From positions 1 through 38,407 of the forward strand of contig JAQBUF010000030.1 of the NCBI GenBank assembly GCA_027623995.1: a stretch of DNA of 38,407 nucleotides, given 5' to 3'. The DNA comes from Nitrospirota bacterium (GTDB lineage Bacteria; Nitrospirota; Nitrospiria; Nitrospirales; UBA8639). The notes beneath the pieces are model-generated. The model was given only the letters and a program-made list of their open reading frames with translations. It did no database searches and had not been told where the DNA came from. The translations under genes and the position numbers were made by a program. This document shows, piece after piece, positions 1,069 to 7,303 of this stretch; position 1 is the first letter of the stretch, and the number at the start of each line of letters is the position of its first letter.

Positions 1069-3411
1069 TTACTTTTCAAATAATCCTGAATTCCTAATAG
1101 TCGTTAGGTCACTACCGGTTGGAGCATCCCCTAAACCGTAGGTTTCTAGAGGACTCAGGTCATGAGCGAGGGTTGAAAAATCTGAATATCGATCTGGAAG
1201 TCCCCAATTATAAATTGTCACAGCTAGAGCGCCAAAAGTACCAACAGCTAAAGATGCAGCATGGCCGGGGATATAGGCCGGACCTAATAATTTTCCCTGT
1301 GGACTTACATGGCCACCCTCATGACCAAAAAATAGTATTTTCTGCATTGGCGACATATTTTTTGTAGAAGGTCCAAAAATTACATTTCCAAAAGTGATTC
1401 CTCCCTCTGGATTGCCATCATAAATGAATGTCCCTCCATCATAAAATGACCAATCAGGTCCTTTGAGACAACCACATGATATAGATTGTCCGGTAAATCC
1501 GACTGCATGACCCACTGCATTATTAAATTGCCGACCACCAGCATATGCAATAATTCCCCCTAGGATACCCTCTCCAATATCTTGGCCTTGAATTGCCGCT
1601 GATGCTGCACCAATCGCTGTCCCTCGCAAGGTATCGTTGAACGCCTGGTTCGCATAATTTACGAACCAGTTTTGGGTGCTATCGCCAAATGGCTGAAATT
1701 TTGATGAATCAACATATGCGGCTAACCCACCCAATGCGCCTCCAAATAATGCACCCTTTAAGGGGTCCCCTCTTGTTGCAGCCGCTGAGGCTGCCCCAGC
1801 AATTGCACCTTGAACAATTCCCGGGCCACCAACATAAAATACTGCCCCACCAATAGCGCCGGAGATAGCTGCATTTCCTAAATCGCCACCTGTAACAGCT
1901 GCTATCGCCACATTTGTGGCAGCACCAATTGCCGCGCCGATTATGGCCTTTACAGCAATTGCTGCTACAAAAGAAAAGAACCGACCTGAGGGATCAGTAT
2001 AAATAATTGGGTTATTAACAACATAGGTATATCGATTCAGCGTTTGTGGAGTTTGTGGGTCTGGGATGACTGTATCCGGCGAAATAAATCTTCCGAGCAC
2101 CGGATCATAGTAGCGCGCTTCATAGAAATAGAGGCTCGTGGTGGTATCGCGTTCTTTGCCCGTGAATTTGTACGCCACATCCGAGGTGCCGGTGTGGGTG
2201 TGGGTGTCGCCATATGGGAGATACGCATTGTGTTCTTCGGCCACGCCGGTGGCGTCGGTGAGGACGCTGGTGGAGCCGAGGTGGTCGGCGTGGAAGTAGC
2301 TGGTGGAGCCACTGCCCACTTGTTTCATGGCGATGCGTTGATCGCCGGCGAAGATGAATTTGACGCACGACAGTGGAGGTGTGGTGCCTTCGCAGACGTA
2401 GAGTTTGCCGATGTACGTTGTCGTGGTCGTCCCATCACTCTTCTTCACCCGTCCTCCATCACCGTCGTAGACGAAGGTGGTAGTCACGCCACCTTTGATG
2501 ACGCTATCCGGTCGGTTCTCGAAGTCGTAGGTGATGATCCGGCCGGCACCGATATTCATATTCCCATTGGCATCGTAGGTGTAGGTGTTCGTGCCATCGG
2601 AACTCACGGCATGCGGCCGTACGCTGGAGCTGCCACTGGCGGGATACGAATACGTCCCCACATTGGACTTGGTCAGCATGTTCCCGATTTCGTTGTAGCT
2701 GTAGGTCACGGTGCCATAGCCGCCCGTGGCACTGGTGAGTCGGTCGAGGTCGTCGTAGTTGAACGTTTTGGTGCCGTGCACGGCATCGGTGAGTGAGGTA
2801 ACGTTCCCGCCATCGTCAAACGTGTAGCCCAAGTCTTGTAGCACGGTGGTGCCTTTTTCGGTCTTCAAGGTTTTGAGGCGGAAGTTTTGGGCGTCGTAGG
2901 TGTAATCCGTCGTCACGCCATTGCCGAGCGTGAGTTGGCTGGGTTGGCCTAGGGCATTGAACCCACTATAGCTTGCGTATGTGGTACTGCCTTCTTGCAC
3001 ACTTTGCAGCTGCGGTCCGTTGTAGGTTTGGGTAACGGTGCTGCTGTTGGGATAGGTGAGGCTGGTGACTCGTCCTAACCCATCATAGGCGCTTTGTGTG
3101 GTGTAGGTGGTGCTATCCACGACCTTGTCGGTCTTGGTCACTCGTCCGGTGATGTCGTAGTAGAAGGTCGTGGTGCCGCTTGCATCGTCTACTTCTTGGA
3201 GGCGGCCTTTGCGGTTGTTCGTGGTCCCATCATACGTATAGACCACATCGCCCGAACCTAATGTTTTCTGCGTGCCGTAATCTTTTTGCACTCTTCGATT
3301 GAGCGCATCGTATTGAAAATGGATCTGTTGGAGTTTGGCATCTGTCTGCAGGGTGAGGTTGCCGTTGGCATCGTAGACATAGCTCCAATCTCCCATGTCC
3401 GGATCATGCAT
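1069..3411 (-). CDS. RHS/YD-repeat polymorphic toxin, 5'-truncated, with HEGGH C-terminal domain
   Basis: Residues 1-430 carry many YD repeats (YDANGN, YDALNR, YDGLGR, YDDLDR). They are followed by the RHS core signature RYYDPVLGRFISPD near 430-446 and the DPSG junction near 473. A Gly/Ala-rich pre-toxin stretch runs about 480-640, and a C-terminal domain contains HEGGH at 697-701 followed by GPAYIPGH. HExGH is a zincin-type metal-binding motif, so the tip may be a metallopeptidase. The Met at 3411 is not a natural start: the frame stays open to about 3435 and matches the internal part of the second RHS fragment (LSRKTS before MHDPDMGDW), where the RAYT element's terminal repeat replaces the rest of the gene. 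No signal peptide, PAAR or transport domain remains. Whether the fragment is expressed is unknown. Confidence 0.85.
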   Translation of the reverse strand: MHDPDMGDWSYVYDANGNLTLQTDAKLQQIHFQYDALNRRVQKDYGTQKTLGSGDVVYTYDGTTNNRKGRLQEVDDASGTTTFYYDITGRVTKTDKVVDSTTYTTQSAYDGLGRVTSLTYPNSSTVTQTYNGPQLQSVQEGSTTYASYSGFNALGQPSQLTLGNGVTTDYTYDAQNFRLKTLKTEKGTTVLQDLGYTFDDGGNVTSLTDAVHGTKTFNYDDLDRLTSATGGYGTVTYSYNEIGNMLTKSNVGTYSYPASGSSSVRPHAVSSDGTNTYTYDANGNMNIGAGRIITYDFENRPDSVIKGGVTTTFVYDGDGGRVKKSDGTTTTTYIGKLYVCEGTTPPLSCVKFIFAGDQRIAMKQVGSGSTSYFHADHLGSTSVLTDATGVAEEHNAYLPYGDTHTHTGTSDVAYKFTGKERDTTTSLYFYEARYYDPVLGRFISPDTVIPDPQTPQTLNRYTYVVNNPIIYTDPSGRFFSFVAAIAVKAIIGAAIGAATNVAIAAVTGGDLGNAAISGAIGGAVFYVGGPGIVQGAIAGAASAAATRGDPLKGALFGGALGGLAAYVDSSKFQPFGDSTQNWFVNYANQAFNDTLRGTAIGAASAAIQGQDIGEGILGGIIAYAGGRQFNNAVGHAVGFTGQSISCGCLKGPDWSFYDGGTFIYDGNPEGGITFGNVIFGPSTKNMSPMQKILFFGHEGGHVSPQGKLLGPAYIPGHAASLAVGTFGALAVTIYNWGLPDRYSDFSTLAHDLSPLETYGLGDAPTGSDLTTIRNSGLFEK

Positions 3412-3466
3412 GCTGGTTTTTCGTGAGAGCGGTTATGGGGTCAGGTCTTGCAATAACACATTGCCT

Positions 3467-4315
3467 TCAATTCCCGTCTTCCGCTTTCCGTACCGCCCGA
3501 CTGACCGTGCTGTAATGGACGCCAAATTGCTGGGCGATGGCCTTCAGGGTATACCCTCCAGAAGCATAAGCGCGGGCCATGGCCTGTAGAGGATCTCGAC
3601 CGCCTTGCCTCATATACCAAGCCAGGGATTTTGCAGGGGCTCGTCGCTGGGCACGTGGCACCTCGGAAAGATCCTGAGTGGCCTCCAAGTGCCTTTGAGC
3701 CTTTCGAATAAAGGTCTCAGAGCCCAAATATACTTGATGCTGCAACTCTTCCCAAATGGGAGGCTGCTTTCGCCCCTCGGAGACAAACGCGCGATAGGCA
3801 GCCTCCGCCTTGGCGCGAGTTCGGCCAAAATGCCCTAAGACCCAATCCGTCGCCAGCCAAGAAGAGGCGGTGGCTTGGCCTGCAGTCGCCCGGTAACTAC
3901 TCCATGGCCATTCTCTGGCACTCCGAACAAGCCCGGCCCGTACCGGATTGAGCACCACATAGCGACAGAGCTCCAGAAGATAGGATTCTCGCTCAACAAG
4001 GATTCCCTTGAAGCGGCCCTGAAACACATGTCCCGTTCGTCCATGCACGCGATTGAAATGTTGGGTATAGACGCCATTGAGTTGGCGCATCCCTTGAGAC
4101 AAATTCGCATCCGGGGTTTCGATGACAAAATGATAATGATTGGCCATCAAGCAATAGGCATGACATCGCCAATTGAAGCGAGAGCTGACGTGGGCATACA
4201 CCTCCAACAATCGGACTCGATCGGCATCCTCAAGAAAAATATCGGCGCGGGCATTGCCACGAGCCGTGACATGATAGAGAGCCCCAGGATATTCAATGCG
4301 AAGAGGACGTGCCAT
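3467..4315 (-). CDS. REP-associated tyrosine transposase (RAYT, Y1_Tnp family)
   Basis: The 282-residue product has the Y1 transposase fold: PGALYHVTARGN at 10-21, an HUH motif NHYHFVIE with His60 and His62, and CRYVVLNPVRAG at 117-128, where Tyr119 is the likely nucleophile. A C-terminal helix-turn-helix (about 243-279, YTLKAIAQQFGVHYSTVSRA) follows, as in many RAYTs that read REP sequences. Length and motif order are normal and there is no frameshift, so it could be active. The enzyme class cuts and joins single-stranded DNA. Its probable substrates are the repeat ends and 138-bp elements in this locus. A 100-bp copy of the beginning of this gene lies at 5896-5995. Confidence 0.92.
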   Translation of the reverse strand: MARPLRIEYPGALYHVTARGNARADIFLEDADRVRLLEVYAHVSSRFNWRCHAYCLMANHYHFVIETPDANLSQGMRQLNGVYTQHFNRVHGRTGHVFQGRFKGILVERESYLLELCRYVVLNPVRAGLVRSAREWPWSSYRATAGQATASSWLATDWVLGHFGRTRAKAEAAYRAFVSEGRKQPPIWEELQHQVYLGSETFIRKAQRHLEATQDLSEVPRAQRRAPAKSLAWYMRQGGRDPLQAMARAYASGGYTLKAIAQQFGVHYSTVSRAVRKAEDGN

Positions 4316-4345
4316 GGGAGAAGGGTAGACGATTAGAATATGTTA

Positions 4346-4363
4346 TTGCAAGACCTGACCCCA
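4346..4363 (+). repeat. REP-type terminal repeat, right end of the RAYT element
   Basis: TTGCAAGACCTGACCCCA forms the upstream end of the RAYT element, 31 bp before the transposase start codon. It is in direct orientation with the copy at 4505-4522. The 141 bp between them (4364-4504) show no coding potential and no match to the neighbouring RHS sequence, so they may be leftover flanking DNA. Confidence 0.8.
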
Positions 4364-4491
4364 AATCTGTAAAAGTCGAGGAAAGATATACCAAATTTGA
4401 CAACTTCTAGCGAGCGATCCCTTGACCCATGGGAATTGTGTTCATATTTTAAATCCACTAGTAGTCATAATGAAAACCTGAACTTACATCT

Positions 4492-5253
4492 TTAATGTGT
4501 GGCAGTACAAGACCTGACCCCCAATCTGCCGTTGCCCAGGGTCAGTGTGCTGGGCTGGCCTAAGGCATTGAACCCGCTATAGGCGGCATACGTGGTGCTG
4601 CCTTCTTCGACGGTTTCCAGTTGCGGGCCGTTGTATGTTTGGGTGACCGTGCTGCTGTTGGGATAGGTAATGCTCGTGACCCGGCCTAAGCCATCATACG
4701 CACTTTGCGTGGTGTAGGTGGTGGAATCCACCACTTTATCCGTCTTGGTCACTCTTCCGGTGACGTCGTAATAAAACGTGGTGGTGCCGGAGGTATCGTC
4801 CACCTGTTGGAGCCGGCCTTTACGATAATTGGTGGTCCCATCATAGGTATAGACCACATCGCCATAGCCCAGGCTCTTCTGCGTGTCGTAATCTTTTTGC
4901 ACTCTTCTGTTTAAGGCATCGTATTGGAAATGGATGTCCTGATCCTTGGCATCGGTCTGGAGGGTGAGATTGCCATTGGCATCGTATTGATAGGTCCAGT
5001 CGCCCATGTCCGGATCGTGCATGCTGGTTTTGCGGGAGAGCGTGTCATAGGCCATGGTGGATTGATTGCCGAGATCATCCGTCAAGAGCACCAGATTGCC
5101 CAGGACATCGTAGTCATACGTGGTGGTGGCATAGGGGGTGCCCACGGCCGTGGAACAGGTGGTAAACGTGCCGGTGTATTCTTCGACCTTGGCTACGCGG
5201 CCATAGGCATCGCGCGTGGTGCGTTTTTTATGATCGTTGGCATCGATGGTCAC
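4492..5253 (-). CDS. RHS/YD-repeat core fragment, truncated at both ends
   Basis: The 253-residue ORF consists of YD repeats (YDYDVLGNLV, YDTLSRKTS, YDANGN, YDALNRR). It is about 90% identical at protein level to the first 165 residues of the neighbouring RHS protein, from MHDPDMGDW to TLTLGNG. The 3' end is abrupt: after LGNG the frame reads through the REP copy at 4505-4522 and stops, giving an artificial tail GVRSCTATH. At the 5' end the frame stays open beyond the GTG at 5253 into the MITE at 5306, so no true start is left. This is a dead piece of a second RHS gene or a duplicated module. A product, if made, would have no toxin domain. Confidence 0.75.
   Translation of the reverse strand: MTIDANDHKKRTTRDAYGRVAKVEEYTGTFTTCSTAVGTPYATTTYDYDVLGNLVLLTDDLGNQSTMAYDTLSRKTSMHDPDMGDWTYQYDANGNLTLQTDAKDQDIHFQYDALNRRVQKDYDTQKSLGYGDVVYTYDGTTNYRKGRLQQVDDTSGTTTFYYDVTGRVTKTDKVVDSTTYTTQSAYDGLGRVTSITYPNSSTVTQTYNGPQLETVEEGSTTYAAYSGFNALGQPSTLTLGNGRLGVRSCTATH
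4505..4522 (+). repeat. REP-type terminal repeat truncating an RHS gene
   Basis: A slightly diverged copy (GTACAAGACCTGACCCCC) ends the RHS homology at 4523. The neighbouring RHS sequence continues normally past the same codons, so the repeat marks a real break. It has no inverted partner within the next 140 bp. Confidence 0.7.
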
Positions 5254-5305
5254 GGCGACCCAGTCATCATGACAGCTAAGTCCCCGGGTCCCATCCGGAG
5301 GATTC

Positions 5306-5443
5306 GGGGTCAGGTCTTGCAGTGACGTATTCCCCTTAAGTCAATTCTTGTGGATTTCTTCCCAATCTTATAAGGGAGAGAGTTGAATGTCGAGATTTAG
5401 AAAAGATTGGTAGGTGAGATATGGCATTGCAAGACCTGACCCC
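5306..5443. mobile_element. 138-bp MITE-like element, copy 1
   Basis: The unit runs from GGGGTCAGGTCTTGCA to TGCAAGACCTGACCCC, so it carries the RAYT element's terminal inverted repeat at both ends but no gene. An inner inverted pair (CCAATCTT and AAGATTGG) adds a stem. A second copy at 5754-5891 has the same length and differs at about 7 positions (about 95% identity). Identity continues for 3 bp on the left (TTC) and 6 bp on the right (ACACCC), so the mobile unit may be slightly longer. The RAYT at 3467-4315 is the obvious candidate to mobilise it. Confidence 0.82.
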
Positions 5444-5753
5444 ACACCCCAGGCCTCCCGCTGCACCCACACCAATAGCTAGTCCAATATTCGTATTATA
5501 CCCTGCAGCTCGATACAAAATCGCACTGGTCCCTCCAACAGCAGCACCTGCTGCTGCTCCACCAGCTATAGCCCCAAAGGCACCTCCTCCCACAGCACCA
5601 CTCACATAACTTCCCACTCCAAAGCCAACGGCTCCTGATGCCCCCCCAATTGCTGCCCCGGTTAAGGTGGCCCCAATGTCCCAATCGCTTTGAATGCCAC
5701 TGGACACTGTACCAACAATTGCGCCAATAAGAATTGCGGTAAAAAACCGCTTC
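5444..5753 (-). pseudogene. RHS pre-toxin (Gly/Ala-rich) fragment captured between two MITEs
   Basis: Read on the minus strand, the open frame begins KRFFTAILIGAIVG next to the MITE and continues as a Gly/Ala-rich stretch (GAAIGGASGAVGFGVG, GGGAFGAIAGGAAAGAAVGG), ending GLAIGVGAAGGLG at the other MITE. KRFF aligns with GRFF right after the DPSG junction of the intact RHS protein, and the Gly-rich composition matches its pre-toxin region. The piece lacks the RHS core before it and any toxin after it. It is a stranded segment of an RHS tip, not a working gene. Confidence 0.65.
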
Positions 5754-5891
5754 GGGGTCAGGTCTTGCAGTGACGTATTTCCCTTGAGTCAATTCTTGTG
5801 GATTTCTTCCCAATCTTATAAGCGCGAGAGTTGAATGTCGAGATTTAGAAAAGATTGGTGGGTGAAATGTGGCATTGCAAGACCTGACCCC
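5754..5891. mobile_element. 138-bp MITE-like element, copy 2
   Basis: This is a same-length, about 95% identical partner of the element at 5306-5443 in the same orientation. Together they flank a 310-bp RHS fragment like the arms of a composite transposon. The right end is followed within 5 bp by a truncated RAYT copy. Confidence 0.82.
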
Positions 5892-5895
5892 ACAC

Positions 5896-5995
5896 CCGTG
5901 ACATGATAGAGAGCCCCAGGATATTCAATGCGAAGAGGACGAGCCATGGGAGAAGGGTAGCCGATTAGAATATGTTATTGCAAGACCTGACCCCA
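5896..5995 (-). pseudogene. RAYT transposase stub (first codons plus terminal repeat)
   Basis: These 100 bp match 4264-4363 of the intact RAYT element with about two substitutions. They include the terminal repeat (5973-5995), the leader and roughly the first 17 codons of the transposase gene (MARPLRIEYPGALYHV). The rest is missing and is replaced by the MITE ending at 5891. It shows that a second RAYT copy once sat here and was truncated, probably by the MITE insertion or by recombination between repeats. Confidence 0.85.
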
Positions 5996-6026
5996 AATCC
6001 GGGCCTTTATGTTCAATGTTCATGTT

Positions 6027-6389
6027 TCATGTGAAATCTAAACCTGTTCCACTTGTACGAACTAGATAATCCACATACTCTTCCCAAACTTCATCAACGC
6101 TCGCAACTATTCTAGGGTTAACTTTAATATTTCGTTCTTGATAGTAAACTTCTAAGCCATTCGATACAGTCAATACATATAACCCATCACGATTCCCAGG
6201 CTGACAGGGAACTACATCTTTCAATGAAAAGTTATCTTTTAAAAATTGAAGAATTTCATGTTTTTTGATGGTAAACACTCGTTGATAAGACTCACCATCA
6301 GATAGTTCCGGCGGTGTTAGCCTTTCAACAAGTCGGCAAGCTTGGTGATTCATTAACGCTCTAATTTGCTCTTCATGAGTTGCTAGCAT
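6027..6389 (-). CDS. Candidate immunity protein of the orphan RHS tip
   Basis: The 120-residue soluble protein has no signal peptide or membrane segment. It starts 3 bp after the stop of the toxin-tip ORF at 6393-7136 and ends about 30 bp before the RAYT stub. The C-terminal half is acidic (ASVDEVWEEYVDYL), a common trait of immunity proteins to cytoplasmic nuclease or nucleotide-modifying toxins. I do not recognise the family. The immunity role rests on tight coupling to the RHS tip. Lack of a signal peptide suggests protection in the cytoplasm. Confidence 0.5.
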   Translation of the reverse strand: MLATHEEQIRALMNHQACRLVERLTPPELSDGESYQRVFTIKKHEILQFLKDNFSLKDVVPCQPGNRDGLYVLTVSNGLEVYYQERNIKVNPRIVASVDEVWEEYVDYLVRTSGTGLDFT

Positions 6390-6392
6390 TTT

Positions 6393-7136
6393 TCACCTTA
6401 AGATTTTTATGGTTTCTTTTAATTCACGAAGGTTCCCAAAATCGGATGGATCAATGACTATTTGAAAGGCATTTTTCCCGCCACCTTCAATAAACCCAAC
6501 CTTAGCTCTTGTAGTCCTCGTTACCTCCAAAGAAGTCAATCTATTGGGTCTTGCCCCTGTAATTGCGAGTTGTCTTATCGCTGCTTCCGTTGAAGTGAGT
6601 GTAGATGATGTAACCCCGCGAGTCGTAAATGATCCAATAGGATTGTTAACTCCTTCTTCGAAAACTCTATCAAGACGCGTGCCAGGGTTTAAGGTAATTT
6701 CTTTGAACCTCCCATTCCTAAAGGTATTTTCAAAAGCCTCTCCCCCGACCTTGACGGTTGCCCCAAAATTAGGCAGGAACGGAAAAACCGCATTGGCTCC
6801 GAGACTTACCCCAGCTGCGACTCTTTCGAACGTTGATGAACCTGGAGAAAACAAGACAGCTGCATCCAAAAATTCCCCAACCCCTGGAATTGTACTTGCC
6901 AAAAGTGTCCCACCGAATAAAGCCGCATCCCTTATTCCAAATCCAGAACCTCTCGATTGACTGGAAACAAAAGGTGTATTTGAAATACCCAGACGTTGCG
7001 ACTGTAAGCCCGCAACATTTGGATTCGCAAACGTAGTGGGAGCGTTGAGTGTGGAACTCGGAATCTGTTGCTGTGCTACTGGAATTCCACCTCCACCGGA
7101 TGGAACTGTTGGTGTATCGCTCCCCCAGCCAAACAA
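6393..7136 (-). CDS. Orphan RHS C-terminal tip with unknown toxin domain
   Basis: The 247-residue ORF starts FGWGSDTPTVPSGGGG, a flexible low-complexity linker. A Gly/Ala/Phe-rich hydrophobic stretch follows (about 65-125), then a C-terminal domain (about 150-247) ending FIEGGGKNAFQIVIDP and a basic tail. The frame is open upstream of the Met to about 7230 and reads LDPFSLFGWG, which resembles the DPxGL junction where RHS tips join the core. No RHS core is present, so this looks like a displaced, orphan tip. The final domain is likely the toxin, since it is followed immediately by an immunity candidate. I cannot name its activity. Confidence 0.55.
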   Translation of the reverse strand: MFGWGSDTPTVPSGGGGIPVAQQQIPSSTLNAPTTFANPNVAGLQSQRLGISNTPFVSSQSRGSGFGIRDAALFGGTLLASTIPGVGEFLDAAVLFSPGSSTFERVAAGVSLGANAVFPFLPNFGATVKVGGEAFENTFRNGRFKEITLNPGTRLDRVFEEGVNNPIGSFTTRGVTSSTLTSTEAAIRQLAITGARPNRLTSLEVTRTTRAKVGFIEGGGKNAFQIVIDPSDFGNLRELKETIKILR

Positions 7137-7303
7137 GGAAAAGGGGTCAAGCCTATTTTCTAATGTATTAAAGTTTGTGGGAGAATTTACCTTCCAGGTG
7201 TATTTCTCGTTAACCGAATGCTACCTAAATTGCTAGTTAAAATGAAAGAGGAAACTGAATTCCGAATGGGGTTTTTAGAGGTGCCCAAATGCAATTCGAT
7301 GGG

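Follow-up and report, generated by a model that had tools for sequence, protein, structure and literature searches.

A probable orphan Rhs toxin/immunity module with a putative NADase-like domain in a decayed Rhs locus of a Nitrospirota bacterium

Two adjacent minus-strand genes in the window analysed here, a stretch of 38,407 nucleotides from a Nitrospirota bacterium (contig JAQBUF010000030.1), very probably constitute an orphan rhs-CT/rhsI (toxin/immunity) module in a decayed Rhs locus. We further consider it somewhat probable that the reading holds as a whole, namely, that the C-terminal toxin domain (CT) of this module is a divergent, ART-fold NAD(P)+ glycohydrolase of the TNT/Tse6/Rhs1-like kind.

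Anatomy and Rhs origin of the gene pair

Both reading frames reported in a first-pass annotation, made from the sequence alone, are present where it had placed them on the minus strand, with a tip at 7220-6393 and an acidic 120-residue protein at 6389-6027 (Table 1); the stop codon of the tip (6395-6393) is separated by 3 bp from the ATG of the downstream gene. The 275 stop-free codons of the tip exceed the longest run, 256 codons, observed in 3,000 first-order (Markov) randomised copies of the region. The frame contains no ATG at all, and its earliest ATG, GTG, or TTG codon is a TTG at 7136 with no Shine-Dalgarno or ribosome-binding sequence close by. Having no convincing start, the frame is an orphan Rhs tip, and no sigma-70-like promoter was seen in the region. 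The description of the pair as a complete cassette is therefore an overstatement, given that the tip lacks its own start codon and, in this genome, any intact core to join.

The DPFSLFG junction from which a Gly-rich linker had been proposed to extend lies at 7148-7128, although glycines are abundant only in the first part of the linker. Similarly, the frame itself is without an Rhs core, as claimed, but tip residues 5-31 (KYTWKVNSPTNF...DPFSLFG) look like a decayed core end, with 50 and 73 of 5,000 shuffles, respectively, scoring at least as high against two real Rhs core ends, and core fragments are found 0.7-6 kb downstream of the pair. Stronger evidence for the Rhs origin than this vestige is provided by the linker, which aligns to the linker of L002, a locus of another genome of the same family (G021), with a score of 89, compared with 35.7 +/- 6.7 for shuffles, none of 5,000 scoring as high. 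In L002 (899-2603), an Rhs core is followed, with one frameshift, by the tip carrying the matching linker and then by a small immunity-like gene (133 aa); a fragmentary RAYT lies alongside. All Rhs repeats and the sole Rhs-associated core of the genome under study, every one of them truncated, sit in the locus described here. Because the linker recurs in a tip that follows a genuine core and Rhs core debris is present at the locus, the reading already put forward at first pass, an orphan Rhs tip next to a candidate immunity gene, is well supported.

The putative immunity protein is acidic (net -5, pI 5.1) and the CT is basic (net +4, pI 10.1); such opposite charges fit a toxin and its binder and prove little. 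Relatives of the 120-residue protein were found neither in plasmids (tblastn), viral contigs, and GTDB contigs (pattern scan), nor in 48 genomes of the same family. Given that the immunity proteins of Rhs1-CT, Tse6, and Tne2 are mutually unrelated (PMC10539506), this absence is no argument against an immunity function. Searches of the Pfam, NCBIfam, PHROGs, and PADLOC profile libraries yielded no family match for either the partner or the tip, consistent with the unrecognised domain that had been noted; a GUN4_N match to the partner (E 0.02, below the cut-off) was taken as chance, and the fold model of the partner was uninformative (pLDDT 38).

Table 1. Features of the orphan tip, the immunity candidate, and the surrounding Rhs locus (window positions), with related domains in other loci
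Feature	Position	Strand	Basis or remark
Orphan Rhs tip, 275 codons without a stop	6393..7220	-	0/3,000 randomised regions reach that length
Putative vestige of Rhs core end just before DPFSLFG	7208-7128	-	weak similarity to the ends of two real Rhs cores
DPFSLFG junction	7128..7148	-	read from tip frame
Tip linker (...LGISNTPFV...IPGVGEFLDAA...)	6747..7127	-	matches linker behind Rhs core in L002 (genome G021)
Predicted C-terminal toxin domain (CT), 117 aa, ART/TNT-type NADase-like	6396..6746	-	fold comparison, homologue L010, family profile
Codon of CT Gln95, aligned with strictly conserved Gln of TNT-type NADases	6462..6464	-	alignment A2; A3 places it otherwise
Immunity candidate, 120 aa, acidic	6027..6389	-	AAGG (Shine-Dalgarno-like) 6 nt before ATG, at toxin stop
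RAYT element scar (5' end and terminal REP)	5896..5999	-	98% identical to 4264-4367 (repeat family D4)
REP-bounded MITE, copy 1	5754..5891	.	repeat family D2, 95% identical to copy 2
Gly/Ala-rich fragment, probably linker of a further Rhs tip, MITE-cut on both sides	5444..5750	-	assigned by inspection
REP-bounded MITE, copy 2	5306..5443	.	95% identical to copy 1
Rhs core fragment 1 (YD repeats), truncated on both sides by REP elements	4525..5300	-	profile matches
Complete RAYT element, transposase gene 4315-3467, inverted REP ends, within Rhs locus	3437..4362	-	NF047646
Rhs core 2, 5'-truncated, own tip contains HEGGH	1069..3430	-	TIGR03696, 79.4 bits, cut-off 32.5; only such core in genome
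CT-family members in other loci	L026 3965-4372, L027 3989-4369, L028 3989-4363, L029 3989-4363, L030 3989-4237, L031 3989-4384, L055 5001-5375, L010 1-327		no Pfam/NCBIfam model

Fold and family of the C-terminal domain

Comparison of an AF2 single-sequence model of the CT, itself poor (pLDDT 60), with the PDB produced 11 matches at Z >= 2, 10 of which are TNT-type NADases (Z 2.6-3.7), including Rhs1-CT (6xtd, Z 3.7), Tse6 (4zv0, Z 3.7), and Tne2 (6b12, Z 3.3) as well as AfNADase of Aspergillus and a Fusarium NADase (Z 2.6-2.8). Foldseek E-values for this model were not significant, a fold search against viral structures returned no NADase and no coherent group, and sequence comparison of the CT with the Pfam TNT domain (PF14021) and with the NADase structures gave no significant match. 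Among four TNT-type NAD(P)+ glycohydrolases that have been compared, a single Gln is strictly conserved (PMC10539506). In alignment A2, CT Gln95 coincides with this active-site residue (Gln1452 in Rhs1-CT), which is not the case in A3; Phe40, in the SFTT segment, is a candidate aromatic ribose-binding residue by alignment only.

A relaxed search of 395 genomes of the phylum led to the homologue L010, a CT of 109 residues at a contig start that is 31-35% identical to the CT described here. The whole-domain local alignment scores 85, compared with 26 +/- 4.3 for shuffles (best of 3,000, 51), and single-pair BLASTP gives an E-value of 2e-5. Taken alone, this match is at chance level for a search of 395 genomes (E 0.01 per genome, with 18 genomes, including that of the window, at E <= 0.05); its weight comes from the membership of L010 in a polymorphic-toxin CT family, with L010 as the only clear member among those genomes. 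In plasmids, this family provides the C-terminus of a Sphingomonas Rhs protein and an orphan tip in a Rahnella Rhs array, directly after an Rhs core end (IDPLGL), and elsewhere it occurs as a stand-alone or CDI-neighbouring gene; in Paraburkholderia, members lie near BcpA/CDI loci. Recurrence behind other Rhs cores, proposed earlier as a check on the pair, is thus seen for this related toxin family but not for the pair itself or the immunity gene alone, no second copy of which was found anywhere searched.

A profile built from the family scores 15.9 bits on the CT, compared with a maximum of 9.7 among 20,000 shuffles, and in a set of 1,875 background ORFs an unrelated ORF reached 12.7 bits against 13.1 for the CT. 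The CT aligns with the family over the whole domain at 20-35% identity, shares with it the segments ...TF..G(R/K)(F/Y)KEI.L...T.L.R...G and GG...Q, and resembles it in residing on an Rhs tip. Of the 14 residues invariant in the family, the CT retains five (G38, A56, both glycines of GG, and Q95, the placement of the latter being alignment-dependent); unlike the family, the CT is without the Q-x-R-I-D and P-x-W motifs and the G-x-Q-G-G turn. L010 matches Pfam TNT weakly (E 0.1, below the cut-off), and no match was obtained between the family profile and a bona fide TNT domain of the same phylum (hhalign probability 1%). Across 295 genomes of the phylum, Pfam TNT exceeds its cut-off for a single protein, encoded in L024 (1163-1417; 65 bits).

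The partner of family members is usually DUF6966-like, in contrast to the immunity candidate described here. PF22294 (DUF6966) matches the partner of L029 (4363-4671) over the cut-off and those of L027 (4369-4668) and L026 (4391-4669) below it, and matches neither the 120-residue protein nor the partner of L010. DUF6966 is probably an immunity family; our literature search found no paper linking it with immunity. In another genome of the same family (G003), a lipoprotein-like gene (L033, 1450-2100, minus strand) displays the toxin-family signature YRVW...GSWWS...NQVFIP (profile E 9e-4) and sits outside any toxin locus seen. No relatives of the CT were detected by tblastn in plasmids and phages, nor of the CT or its partner by peptide-pattern scans of genome and viral contigs. 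A candidate relative, L004 (G078, E 8e-4), was rejected, as the match spans three stops between ordinary genes.

If the pair is indeed an orphan Rhs module, the CT, which was left unnamed at first pass and in fact matches no profile library, can be assigned with moderate confidence to a divergent ART/TNT-type NADase fold; that it also has NADase activity appears less likely than the fold. More tentative is the notion that the CT founds a new subfamily of ART-fold NADases, with a reduced active site that lacks the Q-x-RID and GxQGG elements found in the closest relatives and with an immunity protein of unseen fold. The orphan module might instead carry a CT of another fold or activity, such as a nuclease, a deaminase, or an ART modifying protein or RNA, which we regard as rather unlikely. 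The lack of any profile match, fold Z-scores below 4, and the loss of several invariant residues of the nearest family are compatible with a different fold, and ART-fold Rhs toxins can be either transferases or NADases, which the fold alone cannot separate (PMC13285283); yet NADases were the only coherent group among the fold matches, and the homologue family points to the same class. The NADase-like assignment is our preferred one.

The surrounding Rhs locus

In the direction of transcription, the orphan tip and its immunity gene are followed by a RAYT scar and a MITE, a Gly/Ala-rich tip fragment, the second MITE, core fragment 1, a REP, a complete RAYT element, core 2 with its tip, and a lipoprotein gene, such that the Rhs core is broken up by a RAYT transposase gene and REP/MITE repeats. 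The transposase matches NF047646 (REP-associated tyrosine transposase) with 91.7 bits (cut-off, 80). The REP end GGGGTCAGGTCTTGCA occurs eight times exactly (nine times if one base may be degenerate) between window positions 492 and 5994; in this genome, the exact copies are confined to the 5.5-kb Rhs locus, where they bound the complete RAYT element and both MITEs. The same REP is widespread in related genomes, and none of the 20 REP-flanking regions examined there contains an Rhs core, for which reason a specific mobilisation of Rhs tips by RAYT/REP was rejected: these elements are general to the family and simply accumulate here. In the tip of core 2 (1069-1984), which has no Pfam match, HEGGH is embedded in the segment ...FFGHEGGHVSPQGKLLGPAY..., which hints at a zinc-metallopeptidase-like toxin, and the lipoprotein gene that follows (1044-535) may encode its immunity partner.

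No gene for the T6SS sheath protein VipB/TssC was found in the genome; with no start, no intact core, and no sheath, the orphan tip is stranded. It is conceivable, if improbable, that the tip is a decaying, inactive toxin pseudogene and that its partner, if retained at all, serves solely as an orphan immunity gene. The lack of a start codon, the degraded core end, the RAYT and MITE insertions throughout the locus, the loss of Gln, Asp, and Trp at positions invariant in the nearest family, and the availability of only truncated cores to reload, in a genome where the sheath gene was not found, would fit such a remnant; against it stand the persistence of 275 stop-free codons, the integrity and proper spacing of the CT and the immunity gene, and the functionality of orphan modules elsewhere once provided with a start signal (PMC3150448). 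The possibility that the two are chance or unrelated small genes with no connection to Rhs, toward which the lack of a second copy and of partner relatives might be taken to point, is highly improbable given that the linker is homologous to one following a real Rhs core (0 of 5,000 shuffles) and that the pair lies inside the sole Rhs locus of the genome.

Relation to known modules and proposed function

Orphan CTs without start signals, accompanied by expressible immunity genes, have been described (PMC3150448). In Escherichia coli EC93, the orphan immunity protein is made and protective, whereas the orphan toxin is apparently not made, and orphan modules of other bacteria function once given a start signal (PMC3150448). 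Like those orphan rhs-CT/rhsI and cdiA-CT/cdiI modules (Poole et al. 2011, PMC3150448), the pair described here consists of a detached tip near a conserved junction, with no translation start, and an intact downstream immunity gene with its own signals, and has transposable elements nearby; it differs in that the orphan lies 5' of surviving core pieces and the genome holds no intact main rhs gene. With the TNT-type/Tne toxins (Rhs1-CT of Serratia, Tse6/Tne1, and Tne2; PMC10539506), it shares an Rhs-borne C-terminal domain adjoined by an unrelated immunity protein; these toxins are also the best fold matches of the CT model, and their conserved Gln is apparently kept, but the CT shows no significant sequence similarity to any solved member, and the Z-scores stay under 4. 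By description, a further likeness is to Tne5, an ART-like C-terminal NADase with a cognate immunity protein from an Rhs of Pluralibacter gergoviae (PMC13285283). Neither orphan modules, which are common and well documented, nor Rhs-borne NADases are new; what is found here is a putatively divergent representative, paired with a previously unseen partner in a wrecked locus.

Under the proposed mechanism, the orphan CT would be a reserve toxin that recombination at the DPxxLFG junction could place on an Rhs core; if then delivered, it would hydrolyse NAD(P)+ of a rival cell, with the downstream 120-residue protein binding the CT and blocking its active site. The immunity gene would be translatable without the tip and could protect against rivals with the same toxin. 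At present, this bacterium probably neither produces nor delivers the toxin, while the immunity gene could still be translated and protective.

The locus clearly illustrates the shredding of an Rhs system by a RAYT element. Should the CT prove to be an active NADase, it would widen the sequence range of this toxin class and add another unrelated immunity protein, perhaps blocking the same active site. The family that bridges the CT to other toxins, which occurs in Rhs, CDI-linked, and orphan contexts and has no Pfam or NCBIfam model, is probably the more useful result, as it points to a likely immunity role for DUF6966.
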